Shown here: one piece after another, positions 732 through 43,848 of the stretch
How positions within the stretch are numbered: the stretch's first letter is position 1
How the letters are laid out: every line of letters begins with the position of its first letter
NCBI RefSeq assembly: GCF_030816075.1
Contig: NZ_JAUSXO010000001.1
Coordinates: forward strand, 1,364,001 to 1,428,000
Direction: 5' to 3'
Source of the DNA: Arthrobacter agilis
Lineage (GTDB): Bacteria; Actinomycetota; Actinomycetes; Actinomycetales; Micrococcaceae
Length of the DNA stretch: 64,000 nucleotides
Program-made: the position numbers and the translations under genes
Notes under the pieces: model-generated
Databases searched by the model: none
What the model was told of the DNA's origin: nothing
The model's input: the letters and a program-made list of their open reading frames with translations, nothing else

Positions 732-1083
732 GAGTCGCATGCCCTGCAGCTGACCCGTCAGTCGGGAGGGTCGCGGACACGGCAGACCTCACAGTGGCTG
801 GTCGTCACCAGCCGGCCACACCCTGAGGCTCAAAAGGAGCGGCCCGCAGCGTCGAGAGGACGCCCCGGAAGCCGATTTGTGAGGTGCAGGTCCGATACAT
901 AGGGAAACGTTGAGGGTCAGCGCCGGGTGATGTTGAAAGTGTGCTGCGCATACTGGATGTACGCCTGACAGACGCCCTGTGATTCGATTCGCGGGGCTCA
1001 GCCGGCCACACCGACGAGCCTCGTGCACGAACGTGGACTCTTCTTCACAGCTCAAGCAGGCGGGCTGTGAAGGAGAAGTAACC
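732..1083. other. Gap without a recognisable gene
   Basis: About 350 bp between the GNAT-like gene and the PAS-ANTAR gene. I see no supported coding frame, and the long frames on either strand read as arginine/serine-rich noise. The last 20 bases hold the ribosome binding site of the next gene. Confidence 0.5.
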
Positions 1084-1815
1084 GTGCCCGGGCACCAGAG
1101 CCGGTGGACACTCGCTATCGGACTGGCCCAAAAACGGGCCGGTTCTTCCGCCGCGTCGAAAGCTCCTCCCGTGACCCGCGTCTTCCCCTCGTCCGCGTCG
1201 TCTGCCGCACCGTTACCTCCCCCCGACGGCGTCACCGATCAGGCCGATCCGGGACCCAAGCTTCCGGACTGTCCTACCGGGACCTACGAGTTCTACTTCG
1301 ACTCCGGCACCTTCCTCTGGTCGGATGAGATGTACGAGATCCACGGCTATGAACGAGGAGACGTCGTTCCATCCCTCGAGCTCGGCTTCGCGCACATCGA
1401 CCCGGCCGACCTGCACAACAGTCGTGCACTGATGGACCGCCTCACCAATGAAGGCGGACCAATCGCCGGGTACCACACCCTCATCGATGCGAAGCAGCGA
1501 CGTCATCAGGTCCTCAGCGTCGCGGACCTGATCACCGACGCCGGTGGGACGACCGTCGGCATCAGGGGTGTGCTCGCCGACCTCACCCAACGGATCCACA
1601 ACGACACGCACCGCCTCGCGAACCAGGCCGTCGCCGACTCCGCCGCGCACCGCGCCATCATCGAGCAGGCCAAAGGCATTCTGATGGCCACACACCACAT
1701 CAGCGCCGACGATGCATTCGCAATGATCAGCAACCGCAGCCAGAACACGAACCGCAAAGTCAACGACATTGCCCGAGACATCGTGAATACCACCAGCACT
1801 CCGCCCCTGCGGTGA
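1084..1815 (+). CDS. PAS-ANTAR domain protein
   Basis: A 243-residue predicted RNA-binding antiterminator with a sensory PAS domain. Residues of about 60-170 form a PAS fold-3 type domain (WSDEMYEIHGYERG and a later GIRGVLADLTQR end). Residues of about 177-237 form an ANTAR domain with the typical IIEQAKGILMA helix and a DDAFAMISNRSQNTNRKVNDIA three-helix tail. ANTAR proteins bind paired RNA hairpins and prevent termination. The signal sensed here is unknown. I chose the GTG at 1084 because AGGAGA sits seven bases upstream; the frame is open further upstream but reads as non-coding. It is the first of five ANTAR genes in 18 kb. Confidence 0.85.
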   Translation: MPGHQSRWTLAIGLAQKRAGSSAASKAPPVTRVFPSSASSAAPLPPPDGVTDQADPGPKLPDCPTGTYEFYFDSGTFLWSDEMYEIHGYERGDVVPSLELGFAHIDPADLHNSRALMDRLTNEGGPIAGYHTLIDAKQRRHQVLSVADLITDAGGTTVGIRGVLADLTQRIHNDTHRLANQAVADSAAHRAIIEQAKGILMATHHISADDAFAMISNRSQNTNRKVNDIARDIVNTTSTPPLR

Positions 1816-2119
1816 GCCTCGTGGTAGCCTCGCAGTCGATCAGGCAACGACGACACCCTAGCTGGCAAGGGTCTTCCACTGGGTTTCGCTTGAACGGCCA
1901 CAGTAAGCGCTGGTCTCACGCACGGATCATCCTGCGGGGCAACCCGTCAGTATCTGAACGAGCGCGGGCGATAGTTCACTACCGCGTCCAAGGGACTCGT
2001 AGGCTCGAATAACGGTCGTTCGTTCACGGACGGCTTCCACTTGTTCTCCTTGATGGTGCCTGCAGCAGCTCACGCCCGCATCGTTCGGCCGAGCCCCAAC
2101 CTTCATCAGGGGACGCACG
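1816..2119. other. Gap without a recognisable gene
   Basis: About 300 bp before the GAF-ANTAR gene. No open frame here looks coding. I could not pick out a convincing promoter. Confidence 0.4.
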
Positions 2120-2887
2120 ATGCGCAATCCGTCAAACAACCATTCCTCGGACCCGTCAGTCGTCGAGTCATCCAGTCCCACCCCAGGAATGGCCAACCAG
2201 CTGTATCGCGCCGTCGCCGATAGCGAGGGAGTTGTCGATTTCCTCAATCGGCTCACGAAAATCGCGGTCGAGGTCCTCAGCGAACAAGAACGTGAGGTGT
2301 ACTGCGGGATCACCCTCCTGCGCCCCCGACGGGCCCAAACTGTAGCCAGCAGCAGCAAGCAGGCCCAGCAGATGGACGAGGTGCAGTACCAGTTCGACGA
2401 CGGCCCCTGCCTCACCGCGGCCCGCCAGGAACGGGAGGTCTACATCCCGGACGTGAAAGGCTTACCGGCGGACTCGAAATATCGGCAGGCCATGGAAAAC
2501 CAGGGAATCCGTTCGGTCCTGGCGGTCCCGATCATCCTCCCGGCAGACACGTACAGTGCACTGAACCTCTACTCCGACCAGCGGGACGCCTTCGACGCGC
2601 GCTCTCGGCGGTTCGCACACCGCTTTGCAGCCGAAGCCGGAAATTTCCTCGACATCGCCTCCCACGTCGAATCCCTCGTCGACACCGGCACTGACCTGCG
2701 CGCGGCGATAGAGAACAGGTCCGCCATCGACACTGCGGTCGGCATCATTATGGGCGAGAACAAGTGCTCCCAAGACGAAGCCATCACTATCCTCCGCCAG
2801 GCAGCCAGCACACGGCACATCAAACTCCGCGACCTCGCCCGAAACATCATCGCCGCCTTCGCCACGAACCCACCCACAACACCCTGA
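2120..2887 (+). CDS. GAF-ANTAR domain protein
   Basis: A 255-residue protein with a GAF sensor at about residues 40-180 (VYCGITLLRPRRAQTVASSS, then DEVQYQFDDGPCL, the hallmark of actinobacterial GAF-ANTAR proteins) and an ANTAR domain at about 190-248 (DTAVGIIMGENKCSQDEAI). It is predicted to bind nascent RNA and antiterminate, with the GAF domain sensing an unknown ligand or redox cue. It is closely similar to the convergent copy at 15.7-16.5 kb, which shares the 'CSQDEAITILR' segment, so the two look like paralogs. The ATG follows a GGGGACG-like ribosome site. Confidence 0.88.
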   Translation: MRNPSNNHSSDPSVVESSSPTPGMANQLYRAVADSEGVVDFLNRLTKIAVEVLSEQEREVYCGITLLRPRRAQTVASSSKQAQQMDEVQYQFDDGPCLTAARQEREVYIPDVKGLPADSKYRQAMENQGIRSVLAVPIILPADTYSALNLYSDQRDAFDARSRRFAHRFAAEAGNFLDIASHVESLVDTGTDLRAAIENRSAIDTAVGIIMGENKCSQDEAITILRQAASTRHIKLRDLARNIIAAFATNPPTTP

Positions 2888-3186: not shown

Positions 3187-3608
3187 GGTCGGAGAGAAGG
3201 TTCGCCTGGAAGGTCCACGCCCAGCCAGCGCAGGGCGTCGGTGCGCGTGGAGAAGTACTGGGCGCGCGTGGACCGAATGATGAAATGTGCCATGACCCGA
3301 TCCATGGGGCCAGATCCTAGGACGGCGACAGCTGTGGGGTGTTGATACCGGATAATCCGTTGCCTGCCCTCCAGGCTCACGCCCCGCAACGCTCCCATAT
3401 GAATGAGAATCGGCTTTTCCCGCCAATCCGGTACAGCTGCCAGATGGCCGCGGAAGGCGAGCAGATCCGCGTCGGTTACGTCGCTTCCATCCTCTACCCG
3501 GACCTCGATCCACCGCACGTGGTCCTCAATGGTGTGACTGCGCACCTCGCTATGTCGATCATCTGGCTTCTCTGATGGCTTCTTGGGCACGGTGGCTTCC
3601 ACGGTCAT
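3183..3608 (-). CDS. STAS/SpoIIAA-like domain protein
   Basis: A 141-residue protein with a STAS/SEC14-like alpha/beta fold: an opening strand (VRWIEVRVEDG), a helix, a central strand (PILIHMGALRGVS) followed by a helix, and a C-terminal FSTRTDALRWLG helix like those of stress-response STAS proteins. The ATG at 3608 overlaps the recombinase stop as ATGA, and its own stop overlaps the next start as GTGA. It probably acts in protein-protein regulation rather than catalysis. A related but divergent protein is encoded at 45980-46426 inside the transposon. Confidence 0.65.
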   Translation of the reverse strand: MTVEATVPKKPSEKPDDRHSEVRSHTIEDHVRWIEVRVEDGSDVTDADLLAFRGHLAAVPDWREKPILIHMGALRGVSLEGRQRIIRYQHPTAVAVLGSGPMDRVMAHFIIRSTRAQYFSTRTDALRWLGVDLPGEPSLRP

Positions 3609-4216
3609 AAGGACGGGTGCGCCGCAATCCACTGTTGCGCCTCAAGGTGAGCAATTCTCCGGTAGAGGGTTGCCCGCGACATTCCCAAGTCTCGCGCGAC
3701 GTGCGACGCGGGCTGGCCCTGCTCGATGAGCTGGCGCGCGTTCGCAATCTGGCTGTCACTGAACACTGGCCGCCGACCGCCAAGGTCCATACCTGAGTCC
3801 CGGCGCTTAATGGTGGAGTCGTTGACCCGTTCGCGTTTGATCTCGAGTTCCATCTGAGCGAGGGCGGCGAGGACGGTGAGAACCATGGATTCTCCCGGGG
3901 TGCCGGTATCCACGTTCCCGCCGCCAAGGTCGAGTACCCGCAGATTGACCCGACGCAACCGAAAGTCGCCGGCCAGCGCGAGCATGTTCGACGTCGACCG
4001 GCCGACCCGGTCAAGGGTCGTGACGATGAGAGTGTCGCCCTCCTGCAATGCCGTGAGTGCTGCATCAAACTGTGGGCGGCGCGCATGACCGCCACTGGCA
4101 CCGTGATCCACATAAAGATCATCACGCTGGACACCGGCCTCAAGCAGGTCAGCAACTTGCCGATCCGCGTCCTGGCCGCGGGTCGATACCCGCGCATACC
4201 CGATCAGCTTGCTCAC
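3605..4216 (-). CDS. Serine recombinase (resolvase/invertase family)
   Basis: A 203-residue member of the small serine recombinases. The N-terminal catalytic domain shows IGYARVSTRGQD with the nucleophile serine near residue 10, then DRVGRS with the paired arginines, and LAQMELEIKRERV at the start of the long E-helix. A helix-turn-helix tail follows (ASHVARDLGMSRATLYRRI). The length fits the Tn3-resolvase/Hin class. The GTG start is preceded by GGGAG. It cuts and rejoins DNA at a dimeric site, probably upstream, where an inverted repeat occurs at 4236-4300. Translational coupling to a STAS-like gene is unusual for this family. Confidence 0.9.
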   Translation of the reverse strand: MSKLIGYARVSTRGQDADRQVADLLEAGVQRDDLYVDHGASGGHARRPQFDAALTALQEGDTLIVTTLDRVGRSTSNMLALAGDFRLRRVNLRVLDLGGGNVDTGTPGESMVLTVLAALAQMELEIKRERVNDSTIKRRDSGMDLGGRRPVFSDSQIANARQLIEQGQPASHVARDLGMSRATLYRRIAHLEAQQWIAAHPSL

Positions 4217-6568: not shown

Positions 6569-6847
6569 CTACGTGTCCCTCATCACGTCGGTGCTGTAGC
6601 GGGCGCCATCGATGGGCACATCGCGATCGGCGATCATCTGGTTGATGGCGTGAGCGATTAGATCCCGGTCCAGGACAGGCAGGACAATGAGGCCAGCAAG
6701 ATACGCAGCAGTGTCGATCTCGTCCTGGTCACCGCCCATGCCCAGATAGGTCACCCAAACATCGGTGCTGGGGAAAGCGGCTGCGCACATCGTCTGGATC
6801 GTCGTCCACTGCTGGAGGTATTCGCTGATCACTGCTGTGCTTCCCAC
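6569..6847 (-). CDS. Stand-alone 'VWVxY' domain protein
   Basis: A 92-residue protein consisting of one copy of a domain I cannot name but which recurs three times in the window. Its core reads VWVTYLGMGGDQDEIDTAAY, then LAGLIVLPVLDRDLIAHAINQM. The same pattern (VW-x-x-Y, a glycine, AY-x-x-G, then D-x-x-A-x-A-x-N) is in the proteins at 12862-13305 and 14858-15721. It is probably helical and soluble. In the other copies it is coupled or fused to GAF-type sensors, so a role as a signalling adaptor is inferred. The GTG start is uncertain; a second GTG lies five codons in. Confidence 0.6.
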   Translation of the reverse strand: MGSTAVISEYLQQWTTIQTMCAAAFPSTDVWVTYLGMGGDQDEIDTAAYLAGLIVLPVLDRDLIAHAINQMIADRDVPIDGARYSTDVMRDT

Positions 6848-7651
6848 TCATGAGGCCCCGACAAACAGCACCGGAACATGGACACCCCTGATTTTAGTTG
6901 TCGGCATCCTACGAATCTGGCCGGAGATAGAGACCCGGAGTGGTGGACAGCAGCGCCGAAAGGTGTTTATCTCTCCGCGCCAGTTTTCCCGTGGTGGGAC
7001 ACACCCTCATCAACCCTCCGGCACCAGGGGAACCCCATGGCAGTGTCTGGAACGCTGTGCCAGAACCTCGAGTGCGTCCCATGCTCGGGATGGTCCTGGA
7101 CATGCTTGGGGGTGCCTGTCATAGACACGTTCATCCTGGCGGGGCTGTCTATTCGTGGCGGCCTCCCCACGCGCCTTACGCAAGGGCGCGGTATGCATCG
7201 GGGATGTCAATGAGCCAGCGCCCGATCGCACCGGTGAATCGACCAGTCCCCGTGACCGCCCACCACGCGAAATGGTGTCCCCATGGCGGACCTCACATCA
7301 CTGGTGTCTGCGTTAAAGCAGGTGAGACCTTAAAGCGCCTTCGAACCAGTCCGGCAGGCACCAGGACAGAGGGACGGCGTGCACACCCTGTACTGCAGTG
7401 GACGCAGCATTAACCTGCCCGTGACGGACGTATCCGGTTGCTTGGCAGGAGGGCTGATTCGTTGTAGTCGGAAAACACCAGATCGTCCTTTGCCCCGCAA
7501 GCCAGACACGGGGCAGAAGCCTGCCGGGGTTCGTGCGCCGGTAGTGAGTGGTCCCAAAGACAAAGGACCTACAACCCTGGCGGAAACGCGCTCGGAGCGC
7601 GGGTAAAACACTAAGGCGCTGGTGCAACGGGTGGCTTTCAGTACACGCGCA
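6848..7651. other. Gap without a recognisable gene
   Basis: About 800 bp. Several overlapping frames exist on both strands, but all have cysteine/proline/arginine-rich shadow composition and lack ribosome sites. I recognise nothing. Confidence 0.4.
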
Positions 7652-8101
7652 CTAGTGGGCAGTACCCACCCGGCGGCCCCGGACGTGGGTAGGTACCAGG
7701 CTGAAGAAGAGCTCATGCTGACCGGGAGACCACGCTTCATTGACTACCTTGCCCCAGAGGATCGTCAGGAGCGCAGAGTCTTTCACACGCGTGACGGGAC
7801 CGTTAAGGAGGATGGTCCAGCCGTCAGAGCTGTCCGTGCTTACATGGTCGATTTGGAACGCGGCATGGTCGAGGGAGCTCGTGGCGATGGTGCCGTCGGC
7901 GGAGGTCCGGAAGTACACGTGGTCGTCCAGAACAAAGTAATTCACGGGGAAGATGTCCAGGAGCCCGTCACGAAAAAAGCCGAGCCGACCCGTGGTCTGT
8001 GTAGTGGCAAGAGCCCAGCACTGGAAAGCCGGCAGCTGGTCGGAGGTACGGAGAGCGCCGGGGGAGTTCCAGTAGAGATCCTGGTTGGGCGTGGTCGTCA
8101 T
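7652..8101 (-). CDS. Pyridoxamine 5'-phosphate oxidase-like (split-barrel flavin-binding) protein
   Basis: A 149-residue protein with the split-barrel outline of the PNPOx-like family: GRLGFFRDGLLDIFPVNYFV, a VYFRTSADG strand pair, the SSLDHAAFQIDHV segment, and GWTILLNGPVTRV. Such proteins bind FMN, F420 or haem and often act in redox or stress pathways; the conserved barrel is visible but the cofactor cannot be read from sequence. I chose the ATG at 8101 (MTTTPNQD) because AAGGAC precedes it; the frame extends about 30 codons upstream without protein-like composition. It stands alone in a stress-gene neighbourhood. Confidence 0.78.
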   Translation of the reverse strand: MTTTPNQDLYWNSPGALRTSDQLPAFQCWALATTQTTGRLGFFRDGLLDIFPVNYFVLDDHVYFRTSADGTIATSSLDHAAFQIDHVSTDSSDGWTILLNGPVTRVKDSALLTILWGKVVNEAWSPGQHELFFSLVPTHVRGRRVGTAH

Positions 8102-8688
8102 GATGCGTCCTTGTCCCTTGCTGACGGAAACCAGTTGCCGGTGGCTCGAAACAGCGGCGAATGCGGGAGTGCATCGGCTGTCACCGACCGGCACTGAAGG
8201 TCGGTGGTCTCCTCGAATTCCAACCGTACGGCGAAATGGTGTACCGAATCAGGGTCGAAAGGCCCTGACCGGGTGGGCTACTTACGACGACGGTTAAGGT
8301 GGTCGAAGGTACGTGGCTTACTTACGGGTCGTAAGCATTGCTCAACAGGGCCCATGTGCTGCAGAAGGAAATCCTCTGCGGCCGCATCAACGCAGTCGAC
8401 GACAAGGACTTAACGGATGACGCCCGGGCATACCTGCACTGACTACCCACGACCAGACAGACAACTCTCTGACCTGACGGCGTACCCTTTTCCTCCGTCT
8501 ACAACAGCGACCGGCGCAACAAAACAGGAGCCGACGGCAGACTGCCGCGAAACAGGCACCACTGCCCAAACCCGTCCCCAGTTCTCAGAGTCGTTAGCCC
8601 ACGCTCTATCAAGGAGTCGGAACCAACGCCCGAGTAAGGGTGAAGTCCGTCGCGCAGACGTGCTGGCGCTCATCAGTGCAGGTTCGCG
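8102..8688. other. Upstream region with a small hairpin
   Basis: About 590 bp between the PNPOx-like gene and the universal stress gene. CTTACG and CGTAAG with a three-base loop (8321-8335) form a small palindrome of operator size. A frame at 8417-8701 has weak protein-like stretches but no support. No gene is called. Confidence 0.4.
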
Positions 8689-9648
8689 GTGCCCGTGCTG
8701 ACGGTCGCCCAACCCCAGGGCCCGGTATCGCCGCCTGCCGTGGAGCGGCGGGCGATTCTCGTTGCAGTGCGGAGCCGTTCGTCGGTCAATGCACCCCTCG
8801 AATGGGCTGCTCGTCGTGCGCGCGCCGCCGATCTGCCGCTCATGCTCGTTCACGCGGTTCCTGCTGCCGACTCGATGCCGCCCGGGACGTGTTACGCCGA
8901 CGTGGTCACCGCGGGCCGCAGAATGCTGCAGGATGAAGCCATTCGGTTGTCCACTGACTATCCGAGCGTGCGGGTCAGCACCTACCTCCACTGCGGGGAC
9001 GTCGTCCATGCCCTGCTCGGGCTATCAGCCGGTGCGTCTCTGCTCGTCGTGGGCGCGGACCGGGTGAACACCCTCACTGGTGTCTTCCAGGGCTCTGTAG
9101 CCATTCAGGTGGTGTTGGGGTCACTCGCTTCGGTCCTGATCATCCCGACCGGTCCACGCGGTAACAGCGAAAAGAATGGTACCGCCCACGGGCACGTCGT
9201 GGTGGGTGTCGATGGTTCTGCGGAGTCCAGCGCGGCCCTGACCCGGGCAGCTGCCGAAGCACATCGGCTAGGTGCTGCGCTGCGCGTGATTGCGGCAGTG
9301 AGACCTGCATCGCCCCCAGCCGAAACCCTGGTGGTCGATACTTCGGCGATGCTTTCGGCGATCCACGCCGCCTATCCGTCCCTGCGCGTGAGTTGGATCG
9401 TGGACGCGCTGCGCACTCCGGCCCGGGCCCTGATGCGACACAGCCCGGATGCCGCCCTGTTGGTGATCGGCCGCCACGGGCGCGGCGCCACAGCAGGAAT
9501 GGGAATCGGCTCGGTCACCCACACCCTGCTACTGCGACCGCCCTGCCCCATGCTCGTCATCACCCTGCCCGACCCTGCGCCGCTGGCCGAGCCGAAAACT
9601 GAGACTGCCCTCGATGAAGTACACCGGCCCCCGCTGGCATTGACGTGA
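8689..9648 (+). CDS. Tandem universal stress protein (two UspA domains)
   Basis: A 319-residue cytosolic protein with two UspA folds. The first covers about residues 20-155 (ILVAVRSRSSVNAPLEWAAR, later LLVVGADRVNTLTG), the second about 167-295 (HVVVGVDGSAESSAALTRAA, later LLVIGRHGRGATAGMGIGSV). The second has the ATP-binding pattern G-x2-G-x9-G-S in degenerate form (GRHGRGATAGMGIGSVTHTLL); the first looks degenerate at that site. Tandem Usps are common in actinobacterial dormancy and hypoxia responses. The start is a GTG with a poor ribosome site, so the exact N-terminus is uncertain. Monocistronic as far as visible. Confidence 0.88.
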   Translation: MPVLTVAQPQGPVSPPAVERRAILVAVRSRSSVNAPLEWAARRARAADLPLMLVHAVPAADSMPPGTCYADVVTAGRRMLQDEAIRLSTDYPSVRVSTYLHCGDVVHALLGLSAGASLLVVGADRVNTLTGVFQGSVAIQVVLGSLASVLIIPTGPRGNSEKNGTAHGHVVVGVDGSAESSAALTRAAAEAHRLGAALRVIAAVRPASPPAETLVVDTSAMLSAIHAAYPSLRVSWIVDALRTPARALMRHSPDAALLVIGRHGRGATAGMGIGSVTHTLLLRPPCPMLVITLPDPAPLAEPKTETALDEVHRPPLALT

Positions 9649-9884
9649 CCACTAACGAGGAGTCCCGTTTGTCCCGGATCCTTTAGAAGCGGCGGCGCAA
9701 GACCCGCTCCTTCGACTGTGTGCGGATCTTCCGGCACGACTGGCAACCCCACTGAACATGACTGGGAAGTGCACTCGTGCCCAAGTTTCCACGCTCCGTC
9801 CCACCGAGGTGCTTCATTGAAAGACAACGTCCCGCGCTTCAACCTCTTGTCACGCCACAAGGTTCTGCCGGTAGACGACGTGAG

Positions 9885-10214
9885 TCAGGGAATCCTACGG
9901 AGGTCCCGCGTCGGTACATCCTGCTGTGAGGTGATGAGAAGTCCAGTGCAGGTGGCCAACACATCCTCCAATGCGCGACGAATCCACACGACCGCTTCAG
10001 TGTTCGCATCCGCATCCGCATCCGCTGACGGCCGTCCGGCCAAATCGGCCACGACGTCATTCAAGACGTCAATGAGGTCCTCCACCTTCCGTAGCTCGCT
10101 ACGCGCATCAATTGGATTAATCGGGGCTGCACCCCGTGCTGAAACCTCTGCATCCTTGCCCAGGACCGGCAAATGCGCCGTGGCGTCATCACAACCTGTT
10201 CCGTTGTCGTTCAT
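9885..10214 (-). CDS. Small 'WIRxALEDVxATCTGL' family protein, second copy
   Basis: A 109-residue paralog of the protein at 2944-3186. The shared core is EAVVWIRRALEDVLATCTGL followed by ITSQQDVPTRDLRRI. The underlying DNA is also clearly similar over about 100 bp, so this is a duplication. A polar N-terminus of about 40 residues precedes a helix (RSELRKVEDLIDVLNDVVADL) and an Ala-Asp repeat encoded by GATGCG-type hexamers near 10.01 kb. I chose the ATG at 10214 for its GAAGGC ribosome site; an upstream ATG at 10250 is an alternative. No function is known. Confidence 0.6.
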   Translation of the reverse strand: MNDNGTGCDDATAHLPVLGKDAEVSARGAAPINPIDARSELRKVEDLIDVLNDVVADLAGRPSADADADANTEAVVWIRRALEDVLATCTGLLITSQQDVPTRDLRRIP

Positions 10215-10445
10215 GGAAGTAGCCTTCGCTCGCGGACAATTAGCAACCATTCGACGACGGGACTAGGCATTCCACAACGGGTCTGCGGTGCCGGCAACGT
10301 CTCGCATCCCATTGCTGGAAGGGGCGTCACCACGACGTGGCTCCCGAGCGACGATACCTAATAGAAGTGGTGAAGGCAGCACAACGTGCGATCCCCCCTC
10401 GGGCGAGACGGGCTGGCCCACGGCGGTAGCTAGCACCTAGATCGG

Positions 10446-11039
10446 GTGCAGCTAGAGAGTGCAACCTTCGCTACCGGCGAAAGCGCCGGGGTCGCCGTTG
10501 CTGAGATCAGCCTGAATTATGGTGGGTTCCAGCTGAGTGAGACCGTCAATCCTCCGGGAGTGGATGGGTGCAAGGATCGGCGGGTCGAGGTGTTGGTGCC
10601 TGGGCAGGCTCGTACCATCCCGCCCGCAGGAAGGGTCTGGCTGAACCCCACCGGTACACCGGTGGTTCCCGCCGACTGGGACCAGTCATTGGCCCACGCC
10701 CTGGGGGTCTTCTACAACGGGATCTCCACCGGCAAAGACTGGCGCGGACGACCCATTACCGGCGCGAGCTTCCTGCTGTGCTTCAACTCCCATGACCGGT
10801 CAGTGACCTTCACGCTGCCACCGGCCGAATACTTTCCGAGATAGGAAGTGGTCCTGGGCACCGCCCGCAGAAGCGCCAGCACCGGTGTGACAGCAGCCGG
10901 AACAGACCTTGAGGTGACGAGCAAATCAGTCCTCATCCCCCCGCGCCTGCACAATCCCCAGCCGAAGCCGCCCCACTTCGCAGCCGCGGCCCTCGCCGCC
11001 CTCACCGCCAGGGCAACCGGAAACACCGGCACCGGCTAG
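10446..11039 (+). pseudogene. C-terminal remnant of a glycogen debranching enzyme (GlgX-type) with an amber codon
   Basis: The reading frame matches only the C-terminal beta-domain of GlgX/isoamylase-type enzymes: a VWLNPTGTPVVPADWDQSLA segment, then HALGVFYNG, GASFLLCFNSHD and FTLPPAEY. In intact enzymes the next motif is a tryptophan followed by E/xVVLDTA. Here codon 10842-10844 is TAG where TGG is expected, and the same frame continues EVVLGTA and then AGTDLEVTSKSVLI to a stop at 11039. The catalytic barrel is absent upstream. So this is a truncated gene with a nonsense change, not a functional debranching enzyme. The proline/alanine tail after SVLI is atypical. Confidence 0.72.
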
Positions 11040-11200
11040 AGGAGATCGTCTTACTGTCCAGGCAATACAGAACGATGCCCAGGGGAATGACCTGGCGGGC
11101 TGAGCGGAACGAACGGCCGCGAGGAGTGAAGGATTCCGCTACCCGGGCAGACCGCTGCCCGCACAGCTCTGCGGGTACGGGCAAAAGGCCATACTGCTTG

Positions 11201-11246
11201 AACTGCCAGCACCCCCCGGTGCACGCGAGGGGAGGTACTGGCAGTT
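11201..11246 (-). terminator. Inverted repeat after hsp20
   Basis: AACTGCCAG at 11201-11209 pairs with CTGGCAGTT at 11238-11246, just beyond the hsp20 stop. The loop is about 28 bases and no clear T-run follows on the minus strand, so a transcription terminator is plausible but not certain. Confidence 0.4.
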
Positions 11247-11261
11247 GGGAGAGGGGTGATC

Positions 11262-11732
11262 TTACGCTTCGGCGCCTTCCTGACGTCCGTCGTCGGACTG
11301 GGACGCCTCGATGGCCGTCGACTCAACCGGAGAAGAAGACTCTCCGCTGACAATCTCGATCTTGCGCGGCTTGGCGCGCTCACTGACGGGGATCATCACG
11401 CTCAGGACGCCGTTCTCGTACCGGGCGGAGATGCCCTCGGTGTCGACGCCCTGGCCCAGGTTGAGCTGGCGGAGGAACGAGCCGCTCTCGCGCTCACGGG
11501 TCAGCCACTTGACGCCCTCGGCACTGCGCAGCGTGCGCTCCGCGCGGATGGTGAGGAGCTGGCCGTCCACGTCGATGTCGACCGATCCGGGATCGATGCC
11601 CGGAAGATCCGCCGAGAGGATGTAGTGGTCCTTCTCGCGGTAGAGGTCCATCGGCATGAGGCGCAGTCCGGGGCGGCTCTCGAGGAGGGCGCCGGCAACG
11701 CGGTCCAGCTCGCGGAATGGATCGAACTTCAT
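11262..11732 (-). CDS. Hsp20/alpha-crystallin family small heat-shock protein
   Basis: A 156-residue chaperone that holds unfolding proteins. The alpha-crystallin domain spans about residues 30-130: MDLYREKDHYILSADLPGID at its start, DGQLLTIRAER in the middle, and the family signature ARYENGVLSVMIPVSE near the end. The tail PRKIEIVSG carries the IxI-type motif that docks oligomers. The N-terminus MKFDPFRELDRV is typical for actinobacterial members and supports the ATG at 11732, with AAGGAG 15 bases upstream; a GTG 11 codons earlier is the alternative. Two heat-shock repressor sites lie upstream. Confidence 0.92.
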   Translation of the reverse strand: MKFDPFRELDRVAGALLESRPGLRLMPMDLYREKDHYILSADLPGIDPGSVDIDVDGQLLTIRAERTLRSAEGVKWLTRERESGSFLRQLNLGQGVDTEGISARYENGVLSVMIPVSERAKPRKIEIVSGESSSPVESTAIEASQSDDGRQEGAEA

Positions 11733-11785
11733 GGCCACTGGAAACAACTCCTTCGCATATGCCACCGGTAGGTGGAGTACTGAAG

Positions 11786-11806
11786 GTTGAGCGTCCTTCG
11801 CTCAAC
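11786..11806 (-). promoter_or_regulatory. HAIR-like operator (HspR site)
   Basis: The palindrome GTTGAG-N9-CTCAAC matches the core of the HAIR element (TTGAG-N9-CTCAA), the binding site of the HspR repressor in actinobacteria. It lies about 55-75 bases upstream of the hsp20 start. Assignment is by sequence match and context. Confidence 0.68.
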
Positions 11807-11817
11807 TACGAAAAATG

Positions 11818-11844
11818 TTAGCACTCGACCCCTGCGAGTGCCAG
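11818..11844 (-). promoter_or_regulatory. CIRCE operator (HrcA site)
   Basis: TTAGCACTC, a nine-base spacer, then GAGTGCCAG: the left arm is a perfect CIRCE half-site and the right arm differs from GAGTGCTAA at two bases. CIRCE is bound by HrcA. Together with the adjacent HAIR-like palindrome it implies dual repression of hsp20. Confidence 0.8.
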
Positions 11845-12127
11845 ACCGTGGTGTCGGCATAACGAGCCTGATCTTCAGGTGCCGCTCGTCGTCTGCCTTG
11901 CTCCCGTTTCGAGCGGCGAACAGGGCCCCACGTGCTGAACGCAGGTCGGGCGGAAAAGCGTCCACGAACTGTTTTTGGTCGTAAGCGAGACGTTTTGGTC
12001 AATCGGGCCACACTATTATCGTGGAGGACGCAATCACCAAGGAGGGTTTCAGTGGCATCCTTGGGGATCTTAATATGTCGTCCTACCTTTTGACCTGCGA
12101 AAAAGCACCGAGTGGCTGGAGGCACCC
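11845..12127 (+). promoter_or_regulatory. Leader region of the GAF-ANTAR gene with a repeat pair and a short leader ORF
   Basis: Two copies of TTTTGGTC end at 11980 and 12000, exactly 20 bp apart, about two helical turns. A 13-codon ORF (GTG 12052 to TGA 12093) follows an AAGGAGG ribosome site at optimal spacing, 35 bases before the start of the next gene. The repeats may bind a regulator and the mini-ORF may be a leader peptide. Both are inferences. Confidence 0.42.
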
Positions 12128-12862
12128 GTGGATCCCGTACCTCCCATTACCGAGCTCGGTGTGATCATCGGACGCACGAAGGGCTTCCTGCTCACAGAAC
12201 AAACCGCCCAGCACGCCGTAAACGAACTAGCCGAGGCCGCCCGGAGCGTCATCGACCATGCTGAGGGTGCGGGAGTCTCCCTGGTTGCAGGCGGGGAGCG
12301 AACCAGCGTCGGATCTACCGACTCCTACGTGTTGGCCGCCGACCAGCTCCAGTACAAGCTGGGGGAAGGGCCATGCCTGACCGCCTGGGCCACAGGACAG
12401 GCGCAGATCATCGATGACACGACCACAGATGAAAGATGGAAGTTTTGGAATGCCGCGGCCGCCGAAGCCGGTATTCGCTCCTGCGCGACCTCCCCCCTGA
12501 TCCGAGGCAAGGAATCCATCGGGGCACTGAAAGTCTACGCACGCTCACCGAACGCATTCACGCCCGCTGATACTCAGGTACTCGCCCATCTTGCTACCGC
12601 CGCCGCAGCCCTGCTCGGGCACATCCAGGCCAGCGACACACCCCAGCGCATCAACGCCGAGGTGAGTCACGCCCTCAACAGCAAGAGCACCACCGACATT
12701 GCCCGGGGCATCATCATGGAACGCCACAACTTCGACCCCGATGAAGCGCTTGAGCACATGCTCGGTCTAGCCGTTGATGCCCGTATGACCATGGCCGATG
12801 TTGCAAGGACCATCATGGCCCGACACGACCCCGGGACCTTCCACATCATGGATGGCAGCTGA
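12128..12862 (+). CDS. GAF-ANTAR domain protein
   Basis: A 244-residue predicted antiterminator. GAF at about residues 25-165 (VSLVAGGERTSVGSTDS, YKLGEGPCLTAW, SCATSPLIRGKESIGALKVY) and ANTAR at about 170-232 (DIARGIIMERHNFDPDEALE, then DARMTMADVARTIM). The GTG start has GGAGG upstream. Its stop overlaps the next ATG as TGATG, so it is coupled to a 'VWVxY' protein. That coupling links the unknown small domain to ANTAR signalling. Confidence 0.88.
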   Translation: MDPVPPITELGVIIGRTKGFLLTEQTAQHAVNELAEAARSVIDHAEGAGVSLVAGGERTSVGSTDSYVLAADQLQYKLGEGPCLTAWATGQAQIIDDTTTDERWKFWNAAAAEAGIRSCATSPLIRGKESIGALKVYARSPNAFTPADTQVLAHLATAAAALLGHIQASDTPQRINAEVSHALNSKSTTDIARGIIMERHNFDPDEALEHMLGLAVDARMTMADVARTIMARHDPGTFHIMDGS

Positions 12863-13305
12863 TGCACGGCGAGCAGGATCACGGCGATCCCGGTGCCAAC
12901 TCTCAGAGCGAGCCCGGTGATGCCCTTCACCGGGAAACCGGAGATGATGCCGGAGCTCGGAAAAACAGAGACGGAAACGGGGCCAATGCCAGTGTTGGCA
13001 CCACGAACAGCAACAGCACCAGAAACACCCGCAGGAGCGCCGAACAACGTCTTCTAACCACCAGGGCAATCCACGAAGCGGAACTCACAATCGCCGATGT
13101 GTGGCTGCGCTACTTCTCTTTCTCCGGCGCCGTCGCGGAATACGAAGTCCACGCCTACTTACAGGGACTAATCAATCTGCCCCGCCTGCAACGCGACCTC
13201 CTCGCGCAGGCAGTGAACGAACTGATCGATGAGCAACCCGACCCGCGCAGGGCTCCTTCCGACGCCGACTTCGACGACCTTCCAGGAGACGACCTCGACG
13301 ATTGA
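12862..13305 (+). CDS. 'VWVxY' domain protein coupled to a GAF-ANTAR gene
   Basis: A 147-residue protein. The first 60 residues are low-complexity and polar (Gly, Asn, Asp, Arg), probably disordered. Residues of about 70-125 carry the recurring domain: VWLRYFSFSGAVAEYEVHAY, LQGLINLPRLQRDLLAQAVN, EL. An acidic tail follows. The start overlaps the preceding stop as TGATG, indicating translational coupling and probably a shared complex. I know no name for this domain. A protein-like stretch continues in the same frame for 63 codons after the TGA. Confidence 0.7.
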   Translation: MHGEQDHGDPGANSQSEPGDALHRETGDDAGARKNRDGNGANASVGTTNSNSTRNTRRSAEQRLLTTRAIHEAELTIADVWLRYFSFSGAVAEYEVHAYLQGLINLPRLQRDLLAQAVNELIDEQPDPRRAPSDADFDDLPGDDLDD

Positions 13306-13497
13306 GAGCTGAAGGACGCGAGGTGCCTGTCAAACCTGTTGAATGACTCAATCACGGGCGCATGGGATGAAGTCCTGACCATCGACGCCGACGATGCCAA
13401 CAACCTTCAGGACCTGCTGTCCTCAGCCGAGGCCGTGTACTACGACGTTCAACGCCGGACCCTGATGTTCGGCGCCACAACAGCCGGCCACCACTAA
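13306..13497 (+). other. In-frame coding-like extension after a stop codon
   Basis: Directly after the TGA at 13303-13305 the same frame stays open to a TAA near 13497 and reads like genuine protein (WDEVLTIDADDANNLQDLLS, AEAVYYDVQRRTLMFGATT). There is no ATG or GTG in this frame ahead of the coding-like part; TTG at 13339 is the best internal start, with GAGGTG at long spacing. It may be a separate small gene with a rare start, a tail cut off by a nonsense change, or a readthrough product. Confidence 0.35.
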
Positions 13498-13651
13498 CAC
13501 CCGCCCGCTTTCGGCACTGAGTACCTGCAGGAGAACAACAGTCCGACATCGGGAAGGGACCAACAGACGTACCAAGCTTCATTCTCAACACACAGAATTC
13601 ATGAGTGCCTCTCACGAGAGGCACTCGCAAAATAGCCATGCTGCGCCTGAA

Positions 13652-13876
13652 CTACGTCCTGCCTGATTCGAGCGCGTCTATCGCGTCCAGAACCACCAGC
13701 GATGGCAGGTCAGCTACCGCGGCGACAGTGGCAAGCGGTTCTCCATGGCTGATCGCAGATCTGACAGCGGCTTGAAGTTCAGTCGCATGGAAGGGATCCG
13801 TGAGGTGGCCACCGTCCACGGCAGGAGTGTTGGATCGCGCAGCGCTGACTACTCGTTCGAGGTCATCCGAACCCAT
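13652..13876 (-). CDS. Hypothetical protein, 74 residues
   Basis: The ATG follows a strong GGGAGGG ribosome site. The product is helical and soluble (LQAAVRSAISHGEPLATVAA, then LPSLVVLDAIDALESG), a pattern like a small helix-turn-helix or adaptor protein, but no family is recognisable. It lies alone between the GAF-ANTAR unit and the broken GNAT copy. Confidence 0.62.
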   Translation of the reverse strand: MGSDDLERVVSAARSNTPAVDGGHLTDPFHATELQAAVRSAISHGEPLATVAAVADLPSLVVLDAIDALESGRT

Positions 13877-14014
13877 GGTCCCTCCCAGTGGCGTCGATGC
13901 TTGCTTTAGTCTCCACTGTCACTGTGCAGCTACGAAATAGCGAGCAAAAGGTCGAAGTCCTTGCCGGATTGCCAATGAGGGGGTGGGAGGCATGCGGGTG
14001 CTGACTGTCGAGCC

Positions 14015-14293
14015 CCTAGCAACAGGCTGGCCAATGATGACCTCGCACTGGGGGTTGACGGCTAGGAAGGTGAATGGCAGAGCGCATTGCGGCATGAGAC
14101 CCACGCCGCATTGTGTGCGTTGAGCACGCGGTAGCACATAAGAACCCCGTCGAAGCCCTGGTCCCGGAAGGCGGGTTGTTCGACTCCGTCGAAGGGAGCT
14201 AGCTCCGCCCCAACGATCCCGTACTTCACATACAGGGGAGACGCCGCCGTCAATGATCAGCTCAAACCCGCAATACACGGGTTGTCGCGACAC
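14015..14293 (-). pseudogene. Frame-broken copy of the GNAT-like domain
   Basis: Three pieces in two reading frames line up with the C-terminal domain of the protein at 93-731: FELIIDGG in the first frame, then LYVKYGIVGAELAPFDGVEQ and FDGVLMCYRVLNAHN in a second frame, then GLMPQCALPFTFLAVNPQCE and VIIGQPV back in the first. Two compensating frameshifts, near 14.24 and 14.10 kb, therefore disrupt it. It is a decayed duplicate. Confidence 0.7.
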
Positions 14294-14480
14294 GATCCCG
14301 AACCTTCCGGCTGCCCCCTCACGCCGAAACTCTCCCGCCGATTCTCTCCGCTTTTCTCAAACGCACCCCCAGCAAGACATCAGCGCCCGAGCCGCCAAGA
14401 GACTGAGCAGCCCAAAACCTCGGTAAACAGCCCACGAACACCACTTAGCAATCGTCAGAAGAGCCGGGCGGTAGAGAAGA

Positions 14481-14506
14481 GGCCGGACCACCACAGTGGT
14501 CCGGCC
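14481..14506 (-). terminator. Strong hairpin terminator
   Basis: GGCCGGACCAC and GTGGTCCGGCC form an 11-bp perfect stem with a four-base loop, about 20 bases beyond the stop of the small protein at 14526-14609. The minus strand continues TCTTCTCT, so it fits a rho-independent terminator for that gene. Confidence 0.75.
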
Positions 14507-14525
14507 CTCCGCTGACGGGATGGAT

Positions 14526-14609
14526 CTACTTCTCATCGCCGTCTTTGCCGTCGAAGGTGGCCTTCGCCTTGTCTTTGGCCTTATCGGCTAGTCCATCAAG
14601 GTCCGCCAT
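14526..14609 (-). CDS. Very small Lys/Asp-rich protein, 27 residues
   Basis: The frame from ATG 14609 to TAG 14526 encodes a 27-residue hydrophilic helix (MADLDGLADKAKDKAKATFD). A GAAGGA ribosome site sits at good spacing, and a strong hairpin terminator follows the stop, so expression is likely. The AKDKAKAT pattern recalls CsbD-like and other small stress proteins of actinobacteria, but it is too short to assign. Confidence 0.6.
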   Translation of the reverse strand: MADLDGLADKAKDKAKATFDGKDGDEK

Positions 14610-14857
14610 AAGGTGAGTCCTTCCGTCGAATCGGTCCGCGGTCCTGTCGTGGGCTGCAGCAGTGTGACCCGACCATGGTGTACTCACGCGGCGATAGGAG
14701 CCAGGGTGGTGCCCTTTGGCAGAGAGAACCCCATACGCAACCGGGTTGCTACCCTAAAGTAGTAAGCCTGCTGATAAACCAGTGCGGGAATCACAGCTGG
14801 GTGATGCGACGGCAACCCACAGCTTGGGCGGGACTGCCGGCATGGAAGGTTCTGGAT

Positions 14858-15721
14858 ATGAGCGCGCGGATGCAGGTTGAACAGTTGAGGAAGGTTCTGT
14901 CGGAGACGGGACTTACTCTTCAGAGTGTTTGGGTCAGCTACTACGGCTTGGGTGGGGCTGTCTCGCGCTTCAAGCTCGAGGCGTACATGGCAGGGATGTT
15001 GGTGCTGCAGGACGTTGAGTGCGACATACTGGCCGACGCGACCAATGAGTTGCTGTCCGGAATCGGTGCGACGAGCCGGATCAGCCGTTACTCTGACGAC
15101 GTCCCGGCCGTATCAGCGGGGGACTCCCGACGTGATCTCGGTATAGCGGGAGCTTTCCTGTTTACCGCTCAGGAGCAGGAACAGGAACGTCTGCACGCGG
15201 TGACCCGGACCCAACTGCTAGACACGGCGCAGGAGGACCGGTTCGACCGGATTACCCGGGAAGCCAAGGAGTACTTCCAGGTCAGCTCCGTCATCGTCGC
15301 GCTGATCGATGATCGCCGGCAGTTCCTAAAATCCGTCATCGGCTCGGTCGAGCAGAACATGCCGCGGGAAATTTCGTTCTGCAACGCGACAATACGTACC
15401 GCCGGGCCGCTCATTGTCCGGGACGCGCTCGAGGATGAGCGTTTCAGGGAGAACCCGCTGGTGCTGGGCGAGCCCTACATCCGTTTCTACGCCGGCTACC
15501 CGTTGCGGGGCCCGGGCGGATGGACGGTCGGCACCTTGTGTGTAATCGATCAGCAACCGCGGGAGTACTCCACACGCGATGGCAGGAAGCTTCGCACCCT
15601 CGCCCGGCAGGTCGAGGACGAAATCAACGGTCAACGGCTCCTGCCGGACTCCGGTGAGGAAACTTCATCGGATGCAAGCCAGGAGACGCAGCAGGACCGC
15701 GGCCAGGGCTCGGGTCAGTAA
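14858..15721 (+). CDS. 'VWVxY' domain fused to a GAF domain
   Basis: A 287-residue protein. Residues 1-90 carry the recurring small domain (VWVSYYGLGGAVSRFKLEAY, MAGMLVLQDVECDILADATN, EL). A link of about 25 residues leads to a GAF domain at about 115-265 (RTQLLDTAQEDRFDRITREA, FLKSVIGSVEQNMPREISFC, FYAGYPLRGPGGWTVGTLCV), which resembles the GAF module common before signalling domains, but no output domain follows. I chose the ATG at 14858 for its GGAAGG ribosome site; the 61 upstream codons look non-coding. The stop overlaps the convergent GAF-ANTAR gene by seven bases. Confidence 0.8.
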   Translation: MSARMQVEQLRKVLSETGLTLQSVWVSYYGLGGAVSRFKLEAYMAGMLVLQDVECDILADATNELLSGIGATSRISRYSDDVPAVSAGDSRRDLGIAGAFLFTAQEQEQERLHAVTRTQLLDTAQEDRFDRITREAKEYFQVSSVIVALIDDRRQFLKSVIGSVEQNMPREISFCNATIRTAGPLIVRDALEDERFRENPLVLGEPYIRFYAGYPLRGPGGWTVGTLCVIDQQPREYSTRDGRKLRTLARQVEDEINGQRLLPDSGEETSSDASQETQQDRGQGSGQ

Positions 15722-16479
15722 TCGAAGTGCGTGCGGACAGGTCCTGTCTGTCCGAGGGACGCCAAGAGGTTGGCTGCGAGATCCCGCAGTTTGACGTTGC
15801 GTCCCTGGGAGGCCGCGCGGAGGATGGTGATCGCTTCGTCCTGGCTGCACCGGTTCTGGCCCATGATGGCTCCAACCGCGAGGTCGATTTCTGTTCGGGA
15901 TTCCATGGCTGCACGCATATGGCTGGCACTCTCGCTGAGGGTCGCGATGCGCACGGCGAGGCGTAGGGATTTGGAAGCATCACGGGCGAAGCCTTCGGCG
16001 ACGGCGATACTCGTGTCCGTAAACGCGTTCGGTTCGGTGGAGTAGAAGTCCAGACCCGCGCTGGTGCCGGCTTCAAGCCGGATGGGGATACCCAACGCCG
16101 AGCGGATTCCGTGGCCCGCGATGGCCTGGCGGTATTCGGGGAATCGGGTTTCGGTGAGGAAATCCGGGATGTGCACGGTATAGCCCTCGCGGGCAGCCCG
16201 GAGGCACGGTCCGTCGTCGAACCCGTACTGCACTTCATCCATCACCCGCGCGTGCTCGCTGCTGCTGGCAACCGTGGCCATGGACCTCGGGCGCAGAAGG
16301 GTCACCCCGCAGAAAATGTTGCCGTGGGCGCCGGTGAAAGCGGTCGAGGCGACGGTCACCAGGCCGTCGAGGAACTGATGGACGTCCTCACTGTCGAGCA
16401 CCATGTCCTGCAAGACGGCGATGGTCTCGTTCTCGGCCGCGTCTACGGCGAGTTCCCTCTCATCAGGCACAGCGGTCAT
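15715..16479 (-). CDS. GAF-ANTAR domain protein
   Basis: A 254-residue paralog of the protein at 2120-2887. GAF at about residues 35-180 (IFCGVTLLRPRSMATVASSS, DEVQYGFDDGPCL) and ANTAR at about 185-245 (LAVGAIMGQNRCSQDEAITI, NVKLRDLAANLLASLG). Predicted RNA-binding antiterminator. It is convergent with the VWVxY-GAF gene and overlaps its end by seven bases, so the pair may regulate each other by transcriptional interference; that is inference. Confidence 0.88.
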   Translation of the reverse strand: MTAVPDERELAVDAAENETIAVLQDMVLDSEDVHQFLDGLVTVASTAFTGAHGNIFCGVTLLRPRSMATVASSSEHARVMDEVQYGFDDGPCLRAAREGYTVHIPDFLTETRFPEYRQAIAGHGIRSALGIPIRLEAGTSAGLDFYSTEPNAFTDTSIAVAEGFARDASKSLRLAVRIATLSESASHMRAAMESRTEIDLAVGAIMGQNRCSQDEAITILRAASQGRNVKLRDLAANLLASLGQTGPVRTHFDY

Positions 16480-16627: not shown

Positions 16628-16894
16628 CTACAAGGGGCGAACGATGCCCAAAGTAGAACCCGAGGACTGCGCCAGGTCACTGGTGACTTCTGTCGATTCC
16701 AGGGCATCGCGGCGATCGAGTTCCTCGGATAGTTCCTCGCTGCGGAACTCCGTTTCCGGATCAGGACCGCCGTCGGACACGTAATCGTGAGACAGTTCGC
16801 GCTGGATCTTACTGTTAAGAACCTCAACCTCGGGAAGGTCAAGCGAGGTGAGATCTTCCGGAAACGATTCTGACGGAGTGAGTCTGGTGTTCAT
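16628..16894 (-). CDS. Hypothetical acidic protein, 88 residues
   Basis: Starts MNTRLTPSESFPEDLTSLDL, followed by a helical, charged region (EVEVLNSKIQRELSHDYVSD, then RSEELSEELDRRDALES). Soluble, no known domain. I prefer the ATG at 16894, where composition becomes protein-like, over the longer upstream frame. It sits between two GAF-ANTAR genes on the same strand, so it may be co-transcribed with the one upstream. Confidence 0.55.
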   Translation of the reverse strand: MNTRLTPSESFPEDLTSLDLPEVEVLNSKIQRELSHDYVSDGGPDPETEFRSEELSEELDRRDALESTEVTSDLAQSSGSTLGIVRPL

Positions 16895-17214
16895 GGCGAC
16901 GCCTATCCGGGTGAAGAGAACATGATGGAACTCTGGCTCTCTTCTGAACCACCGCTGACCATACCAGCAGGAGCTCATCCTACTCGCGCTCACTCACACC
17001 TCACGCACAGTGATTCGGCCGATGGGCCCCCCGAGTGTCCCTTGCTCACGGGTTGATCCCGGCGTACCCGCTGAGAACGGCATTTCGGGGTCCCCGCTGG
17101 TGTTACAGGTTCTCTCCCGGTTGATCGGCGCAGACGTTCAAACGGTCTTCCCGCAGGAGACCGTCGCGTAGTGTGCCGGACCGCTTGTCCTCCACTCGGA
17201 GGCTGTGGCTGTGG

Positions 17215-20064: not shown

Positions 20065-20880
20065 CTACGGGTTGGTGGATGATTGACCGTCTGCGTGCAC
20101 CGTGAAGATTTGAACCTTGAAGCGGTGGGCGAGGTCCTGGATGTCGGTGTCGCCGGCGCAGACCGTGGTCGCGAGAACGTCCGCGGTGAGAATGTCCATG
20201 GCGATGACACTCGCCTGCACAACTGGCTGGGATCCTCCTCCCTTGCCTGAGGGTGACCAGATGTGGTGGCCGCGTTCGCTCGCTCCTGAGGTTGCGATGG
20301 CGGTTCGTCCCGGGGACATCGTGATGGTGGTGATTATGGTCGTTCTGTCCGTCGGATTAACGATGCCTATGGCCCAGGGGGTGCCTGGTGCTTGGACGCC
20401 GCTGCACAGGATGTCTCCTCCACAGTTCAGGGACCAGTCGTGTACGCCCTGCTGTCGTAGGTATTGTCCTGCCTGGTCGATGGCATGGGCTTTCACGACA
20501 CCGTTGAGGTCCAGGTGGCCGCCGGGGTCGTGTGGGTCGAAGAGCCCGCCGGTGGTGTTGCGCCACTCCACGGCCAGAGCGTACATTTCCCGTACTTCCC
20601 TCGAGCTGCGGGACAGTAACAGGCGCCCGTCCGTTACTTGCCTGAGCTCGGAGTCAGGTTTGTAGAGGCTGAATCGGTCGTCGTGGGCCCGAAAAATCTT
20701 CTGCACGTCGGCCGTGCAAGCCGCCGTCGCTTCCGGTGGTGCGCGGAAGCTGACAACGGTACCCATGGTGAAGAACACGGTGGCAGGTCCTACCGTCAGG
20801 TTGCTGGTGGCGGATGGGATGGCCGGTTCAGGGGCTTCATCTGCTGTTCGGAGGGGTTGACGGCTTGGTGTTGTAGTCAT
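20065..20880 (-). CDS. apbE: FAD:protein FMN transferase (ApbE family)
   Basis: A 271-residue ApbE-type enzyme. It attaches FMN from FAD to a threonine of partner flavoproteins by a phosphoester bond, using Mg2+. Visible motifs: an early TVVSFRAPPEA strand in the TMGT region, GGLFDPHDPGGHLDLNGVVK (the G-x-x-K-AxAiD segment continues with AHAIDQAG), SLNCGGDILCSG, IATSGASERGHHIWSP, and MDILTADVLATTVCAGD near the C-terminus. No lipobox or signal is seen, so it is probably cytosolic. Its start overlaps the upstream FMN-binding gene as ATGA, and both upstream substrates are FMN-binding proteins. Confidence 0.9.
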   Translation of the reverse strand: MTTTPSRQPLRTADEAPEPAIPSATSNLTVGPATVFFTMGTVVSFRAPPEATAACTADVQKIFRAHDDRFSLYKPDSELRQVTDGRLLLSRSSREVREMYALAVEWRNTTGGLFDPHDPGGHLDLNGVVKAHAIDQAGQYLRQQGVHDWSLNCGGDILCSGVQAPGTPWAIGIVNPTDRTTIITTITMSPGRTAIATSGASERGHHIWSPSGKGGGSQPVVQASVIAMDILTADVLATTVCAGDTDIQDLAHRFKVQIFTVHADGQSSTNP

Positions 20881-21404
20881 GAGGTTGCCTCATCGAGCGC
20901 GGCTTGCAGGGACGCAGCGTAGGCCTGGGAGGTGTAGGTGGCGCCGCTGATCATGGTGATGTCGGTGCTCTGGGCGGCCAGGACGGCATTGCCGAGCAGG
21001 TTTTCCATCCGTTGGTTGATATCCCGAGACACCGGGTTCTGGGCGAGGAGCGCTGCGTCGACGTTCGTGATCACGCCGTTGGTGACGGTCACGCCGACGC
21101 TGACTGATCCGCGCGGGTACGGGACGGGGGGCCCGACGAAGGTCCCATCCGCAGCTGCGGCGGCGGTGATGGTGGGATCGGCGGTGATAGCGGCCATGTC
21201 TGCTCCGCGCGCGCCCTGGCCTCTGCGACCGGGGCCGTCGAAACGGTCGCTGAAGGCGGCCGCCATGCGTCCTCCGCCCCGGCCAGTGTCGAGGATGGTG
21301 GCGGTCGTCGCGGCAGCATTATTGGTTTGGGTGCCGGCCTGCCAGCCGATGATCAGGATGCAGGCAGTGGCAGCTGCTGCGGATGCGGCGATGCGTGGTC
21401 TCAT
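20877..21404 (-). CDS. Exported FMN-binding domain protein
   Basis: A 175-residue protein with an N-terminal membrane anchor or signal (AASAAAATACILIIGWQAG), a linker, and an FMN-binding domain at about residues 95-172. The flavinylation motif MISGATYTSQAY is intact, with the acceptor threonine inside SGAT. The partner enzyme ApbE is encoded next, overlapping by ATGA. The ATG at 21404 follows AAGGATG; the longer frame upstream is not protein-like. It likely carries electrons outside the membrane. Confidence 0.85.
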   Translation of the reverse strand: MRPRIAASAAAATACILIIGWQAGTQTNNAAATTATILDTGRGGGRMAAAFSDRFDGPGRRGQGARGADMAAITADPTITAAAAADGTFVGPPVPYPRGSVSVGVTVTNGVITNVDAALLAQNPVSRDINQRMENLLGNAVLAAQSTDITMISGATYTSQAYAASLQAALDEATS

Positions 21405-21432
21405 GGGCCATCCTTGCGGGCAATACCGGGCA

Positions 21433-41635: not shown

Positions 41636-41646
41636 CCTGGAACTCC

Positions 41647-41674
41647 TGTCTCATATACGACCGGTTACGGGACA
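41647..41674. promoter_or_regulatory. res-like resolution subsite
   Basis: A 28-bp segment begins TGTC and ends GACA, the size and symmetry of a Tn3-type res subsite I, in the gap between tniR and tniQ where Tn5053 relatives have res. Further subsites may extend to 41724. Confidence 0.6.
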
Positions 41675-41724
41675 AGCGGTGCTTCTACTGAAGATGGACC
41701 GCTGATTGTCACGTAAGTCTTCAC

Positions 41725-43847: not shown

Positions 43848-43848
43848 C

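Follow-up and report, generated by a model that had tools for sequence, protein, structure and literature searches.

Three genes within a 64,000-nucleotide stretch of the Arthrobacter agilis genome (hereafter the window; contig NZ_JAUSXO010000001.1, positions 1,364,001 to 1,428,000) raise the question whether a short sequence pattern that they share represents a single protein domain and, if so, which proteins this domain works with. A preliminary description had placed the pattern, of about 75 residues, at 6569-6847, 12862-13305 and 14858-15721, and had proposed it as a new partner domain of GAF signalling. The three copies, here called A, B and C, are indeed present at these positions and can be aligned with 15 invariant columns, including V30, W31, Y34, A48, Y49, G52, D62, A65, A67 and N69. 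We refer to the common domain as DOM. A search of the 3.86-Mb genome with the domain of copy B recovered copy C (E = 1.1e-9) and copy A (E = 1.6e-9) and gave a total of 16 copies; E-values of this order (about 1e-9), together with the number of copies, show that the resemblance is not due to chance and that A, B and C carry one domain. Apart from the three window copies the genome has 13 more, two of which are further GAF fusions, and the copy number reaches 35 in a relative.

The three copies differ in context. Copy A (6569-6847, minus strand; 109 bits with the DOM HMM) encodes a protein of 92 residues with a GTG start. It had been described as standing alone, and it consists of DOM only; its standing as an original stand-alone form is doubtful, since in the DOM tree it is nested within a clade of GAF fusions, and it may instead be a shortened GAF-fusion gene, of which tblastn found no GAF remnant beside it. 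Copy B (12862-13305, plus strand) is coupled to a GAF-ANTAR gene (12128-12862, plus strand), its ATG overlapping the TGA of that gene by one base. In this copy DOM (13030-13263; HMM match at residues 85-162 of the frame) is preceded by a low-complexity linker of about 52 residues, a layout that is repeated in an A. agilis relative (locus L136). The partner protein is recognized above the gathering scores by Pfam GAF_2 (7.8e-20) and ANTAR (6e-11, domain at 12659-12814). GAF-ANTAR proteins were split into two main classes by HMMs built in this analysis, and this one belongs to class I (279 bits with the class I GAF HMM). Copy C (14858-15721, plus strand) is a fusion of 287 residues in which DOM and GAF share one frame from the ATG at 14858 to 15721, within an open frame from 14612. 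Its DOM domain (92 bits) lies at 14858-15100 (residues 83-163 of the open frame) and its GAF domain (282 bits with GAF-F; Pfam GAF 1.9e-14) at 15170-15628 (residues 187-339). Convergent with copy C, and overlapping its end by 7 bp, is a class II GAF-ANTAR gene (15715-16479, minus strand; Pfam ANTAR 1.7e-15; class II HMM 270 bits). Seven instances of this convergent DOM/ANTAR layout, 620-710 bp apart, were found in six genomes.

Several other features lie in the neighbourhood of DOM genes. Between copies B and C, at 14021-14332 (minus strand), there is a remnant of an Acetyltransf_CG-like GNAT gene, which matches an intact gene at 93-731 (tblastn, 1.6e-8); intact relatives of this gene occur near DOM as 12 copies in 11 loci, including an overlapping locus of the same genome. 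The N-terminal part of the GNAT protein has no convincing Pfam match. Two more ANTAR genes (937-2887, plus strand), one PAS-like and one of class II GAF type, adjoin a GNAT gene. Small acidic proteins that start with FPEDLT, end with EELDRR and are without a Pfam match are encoded at 16628-16993 (minus strand) and at L169:6376-6672; their family is represented 9 times across 8 DOM loci, the motif resembles the GNAT N-terminus, and they may constitute another domain without a name that belongs to this network. A small protein that looks STAS-like by eye, also without a Pfam match, is encoded at 3303-3632 (minus strand) and belongs to a family of 9 in 8 DOM loci. Further away in the window are a set of resolvase and TniQ-, TniB- and TniA-like genes (41021-45519, minus strand), by appearance a Tn402/Tn5053-like transposon, and a group of genes (20065-23378, minus strand) that encode an ApbE-like protein, a membrane oxidoreductase and two proteins of FMN-binding-like appearance, and that resemble a cluster for extracellular electron transfer by flavins.

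DOM does not correspond to a known family. No significant Pfam match was obtained, the best E-value being 0.1 (copy B protein), and nothing convincing appeared when 16 members were scanned singly; NCBIfam and PHROGs gave no significant match over DOM in the window copies either, so that in none of these three collections did a named family score above its curated cut-off or with a significant E-value. PDB sequences also gave no significant match; the sole relative among them, the anti-CRISPR protein AcrIF4 (E = 0.06), was judged a chance match. A phage origin was considered and rejected, as phages gave no match, and so was a relationship to ANTAR itself (hhalign probability 0.5%). Weak matches at loci L063-L065 are methyltransferase-like, and were dropped as chance resemblances, and a weak match on a Rhodococcus plasmid (L236), which has no adjoining ANTAR gene, was set aside. 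Public records with a gene call at DOM mostly read 'hypothetical protein', and one fusion is called 'GAF domain-containing protein'; the scan of named genomes, made with a single DOM sequence, yielded close relatives only. No paper in the literature searched joins ANTAR, SpoIIE and STAS, and the few found there on GAF and ANTAR do not appear to describe DOM.

The AlphaFold2 model of DOM, based on 22 sequences and taken for copy B, is a confident four-helix fold (pLDDT 88, pTM 0.73). In both Foldseek libraries almost all its matches are Cro/CI-type helix-turn-helix (HTH) proteins. The matches to lambda-repressor-like folds cover 56-75 residues, many of them at 1.4-2.3 A, with probabilities mostly of 0.9-1.0 and E-values of 0.1-1. 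DOM could accordingly be read as a divergent Cro/CI-type DNA-binding protein that is co-transcribed with GAF-ANTAR, the DOM-GAF fusion then being a one-component transcription factor. We consider this unlikely: the fold matches stay below significance, and a profile comparison with the HTH_3 domains of the same genome gave a probability of just 1.3%. In addition, the helix at the recognition position is acidic at the conserved positions 36, 38 and 40, has almost no Lys or Arg and carries Asp or Glu in 91% of members at its best-conserved site, and therefore lacks the polar or basic character fit for DNA contact. DOM as a whole has a mean net charge of -6.5 over about 80 residues, and no conserved basic face was seen in its conserved columns. 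Because of this strongly acidic character, we read the predicted fold as HTH-like with a surface that seems unsuited to nucleic acid. A model of the fusion protein was too poor (pLDDT 57) to be used for docking of DOM to GAF.

The genome has 33 ANTAR domains, and about 33 per genome is also the number noted more generally. The six genomes examined in the genus contain 96 DOM copies, of which 26 start at most 300 bp downstream of an ANTAR gene on the same strand, where uniform placement predicts 0.10, and 43 of the 96 lie within 1.5 kb of one (2.1 expected on the same basis). Another 40 of the 96 are more than 5 kb away from any ANTAR, so that DOM must also be active outside its operon or have other partners. 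Directly before DOM, a class I GAF-ANTAR gene was found in 62 distinct (non-identical) pairs, with the DOM start codon mostly at -4, -1 or up to about 20 nt from the GAF-ANTAR stop; in having an adjoining gene for a probable dedicated partner, these pairs resemble those of AmiC and NasS. Beyond the genus, the arrangement was met in Kocuria and Tersicoccus, in several actinobacterial families and, within the phylum, in further classes. All 32 best loci from another order and its surroundings have a GAF-ANTAR gene adjoining DOM; as best matches are a biased sample, 20 weaker loci were added, and an ANTAR gene was present within the stretch in 15 of these. MOBF plasmids (AP018698.1 of Arthrobacter sp. 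MN05-02, and NZ_CP117870.1) carry up to five DOM copies along with GAF-ANTAR genes. Arthrobacter-like DOM and GAF-ANTAR genes were also met in a record labelled Vibrio cholerae 35D (L142, WNZI01000081.1), probably through assembly contamination.

Among paralogues, the within-genome distances of DOM proteins correlate with those of their partners (0.72, equalled by 1 of 2000 reshuffles). The two trees agree, and such agreement can also be produced by duplication of whole operons without any binding. Another reading is that DOM and GAF-ANTAR are mere neighbours through operon duplication, with neither a physical nor a regulatory link, which fits the expansion of the family by paralogy in the genus and its occurrence on MOBF plasmids. 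We hold it to be the least probable of the readings considered here, as gene order and tight spacing are kept in families and classes that have a single copy, and as DOM is fused to different enzymes. The preliminary description had named two results that would speak against its proposal, a match of the pattern to a known Pfam domain and a lack of enrichment near GAF/ANTAR genes in other genomes; neither was obtained, and the idea of a new partner domain is supported in outline. The partner is the GAF-ANTAR protein specifically, and not GAF in general.

The fusions are also informative. Proteins of some 480-500 residues encoded in distant loci start with DOM and have a C-terminal SpoIIE phosphatase domain (Pfam 4.7e-44 and 8.3e-28), separated by a middle region (MID) that is weakly GAF-like (37% probability). 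In Nocardia and relatives this is the usual form, encoded by a gene adjoining GAF-ANTAR; in the order of genome G399, DOM was present in 59 of the 299 genomes. Of 26 DOM-MID-SpoIIE fusions, including that of Nocardia farcinica, 20 immediately follow a GAF-ANTAR gene, and the other six are divergent from one. The four catalytic, metal-binding motifs occur together in most of them; seven have none of the four and look like pseudophosphatases. The SpoIIE catalytic domain is absent from the DOM copies of the window. STAS domains are the usual substrates of SpoIIE-type phosphatases, and they also occur here: in four loci of one family a STAS-GAF-ANTAR gene is followed by DOM, and in locus L067 a DOM-STAS fusion lies behind a GAF-ANTAR gene. 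Repeated placement behind or near GAF-ANTAR genes, together with the phosphatase fusion, suggests that DOM is probably a dedicated partner. In the DOM tree, which is based on 87 columns and has many open forks, the phosphatase fusions and some coupled copies stand apart from the Micrococcaceae copies. Within the Micrococcaceae part the coupled, GAF-fusion and orphan copies are clustered (26 changes, against 90.6 after shuffling), and GAF fusions occupy at least two clades.

ANTAR regulators are usually thought to bind RNA. The ANTAR domain of the copy B partner passes Pfam PF03861 with 42.4 bits (gathering score 27.3), and ANTAR residues were numbered by alignment to PAL (6HMJ) and EutV (6WSH). 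In NasR the residues W362, R366, R340 and N373 are important for RNA binding (PMC7496416), and the RNA contacts of EutV include R142, K143/K147, M172, N173, R175 and R177, with Tyr164 beside M172 (PMC8934654). The copy B partner has Leu at both 362 and 366 and Thr at the position of EutV R177. In the 52 DOM-paired ANTARs of Micrococcaceae no aromatic residue was found at 362 and no basic residue at 366, compared to 41 and 34 of the 78 other ANTARs of the same loci, and the R177 residue was kept in 3 of 52 compared to 70 of 78; these counts are used descriptively, because shared ancestry inflates any p-value. R340 is kept in 50 of the 52 (the window protein has Lys there), and position 347 is mostly basic. 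In distant families, the aromatic residue at 362 is retained in eight of nine DOM-paired ANTARs. Judged from these residues, the DOM-paired ANTARs of Micrococcaceae would either bind RNA differently or have been converted into protein switches. The two classes show complementary losses: class I lacks 366 and keeps a basic 347, and class II has lost the lysine at 347 (basic in 0 of 45) and keeps 366 and 373. Of the 62 class I/DOM pairs, 17 have a class II GAF-ANTAR gene no more than 1.5 kb away, and the complementary losses might mean that heterodimers are formed.

The same residues could also be explained if DOM supplied or altered RNA recognition, the worn ANTAR face and DOM binding RNA jointly. 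The retention of R340 and of a basic 347 next to the complete loss of aromatic 362 and basic 366 would suit such a role; against it stand the acidic nature of DOM, whose conserved columns form no basic patch, and the absence of an Rfam match at the gathering threshold, be it to an ANTAR target or another RNA, in positions 1-22000 of the window. Joint RNA binding thus seems quite improbable.

We propose that GAF-ANTAR proteins have in DOM a docking partner, bound stoichiometrically, that ties them to partner-switching signalling. In our judgement this is a reasonably probable explanation, considering the tight coupling, the co-inheritance, the fusions to regulatory modules and the conserved acidic, protein-like surface; the binding, its stoichiometry, the regulation and the signal are all inferred. 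The many copies that lie far from any ANTAR gene and the seven fusions that have none of the catalytic motifs weigh against it. Through translational coupling, DOM and GAF-ANTAR would probably be made in equal amounts and form a complex, in which GAF would sense a signal and binding of DOM would determine how active the ANTAR protein is. The form widespread in actinobacteria has DOM at the N-terminus of a PP2C phosphatase of SpoIIE type, which in some cases is catalytically dead; as STAS is carried either by DOM or by its ANTAR partner, the complex would probably couple ANTAR output to partner-switching. Micrococcaceae have retained DOM with no phosphatase attached, amplified it to as many as 35 copies in a genome and joined it to GAF domains. 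A more far-reaching version can be put forward tentatively and is itself rather doubtful, namely that the DOM-phosphatase switches GAF-ANTAR, with DOM linking ANTAR to SpoIIE/STAS partner-switching, and that the Micrococcaceae ANTAR has abandoned RNA and acts, in a pair with DOM, as a protein switch.

Actinobacteria possess GAF-ANTAR proteins in very large numbers, and little has been learned of how these are controlled. A partner domain dedicated to them, encoded by an adjoining gene and fused to phosphatase, STAS or GAF modules, would offer a handle on this control and predicts interacting proteins; it also suggests that a family of RNA-level regulators is wired into partner-switching of the stress type. 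The residue losses are a warning that many annotated RNA-binding ANTAR regulators may depart from the usual mode of RNA binding. A regulatory partner of ANTAR proteins is already known as a kind; what is new here is DOM itself, its joining to phosphatase, STAS and GAF, and the finding that its partners in Micrococcaceae have lost RNA-contact residues.

Compared to known systems, DOM appears similar to Cro/CI (XRE) proteins in its predicted fold topology, without sequence-profile similarity and with an acidic instead of a basic recognition helix. The DOM fusions resemble RsbU-type phosphatases in that a small helical domain at the N-terminus precedes SpoIIE/PP2C, with STAS nearby, but no Pfam N-terminal family was detected on them, and the neighbouring gene encodes a GAF-ANTAR protein and not an RsbT-type kinase. 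Both AmiC and NasS are sensors that bind small molecules. Control of an ANTAR protein by a partner has been established for AmiC-AmiR and NasS-NasT, in which, as proposed for the DOM pairs, a dedicated partner from an adjacent gene holds the ANTAR protein in a complex (PMC3795266). Unlike AmiC and NasS, DOM is predicted to be a helical bundle of about 75 residues without an evident ligand pocket, and its ANTAR partner bears its own GAF sensor; by analogy, its role may be comparable to that of AmiC or NasS, with an unrelated structure. Finally, like the canonical RNA-binding EutV and NasR, the copy B partner has an ANTAR domain above the Pfam gathering score, with R340 generally kept (Lys in the window protein), whereas the DOM-paired ANTARs of Micrococcaceae have lost residues that those proteins need for RNA binding (PMC7496416, PMC8934654).
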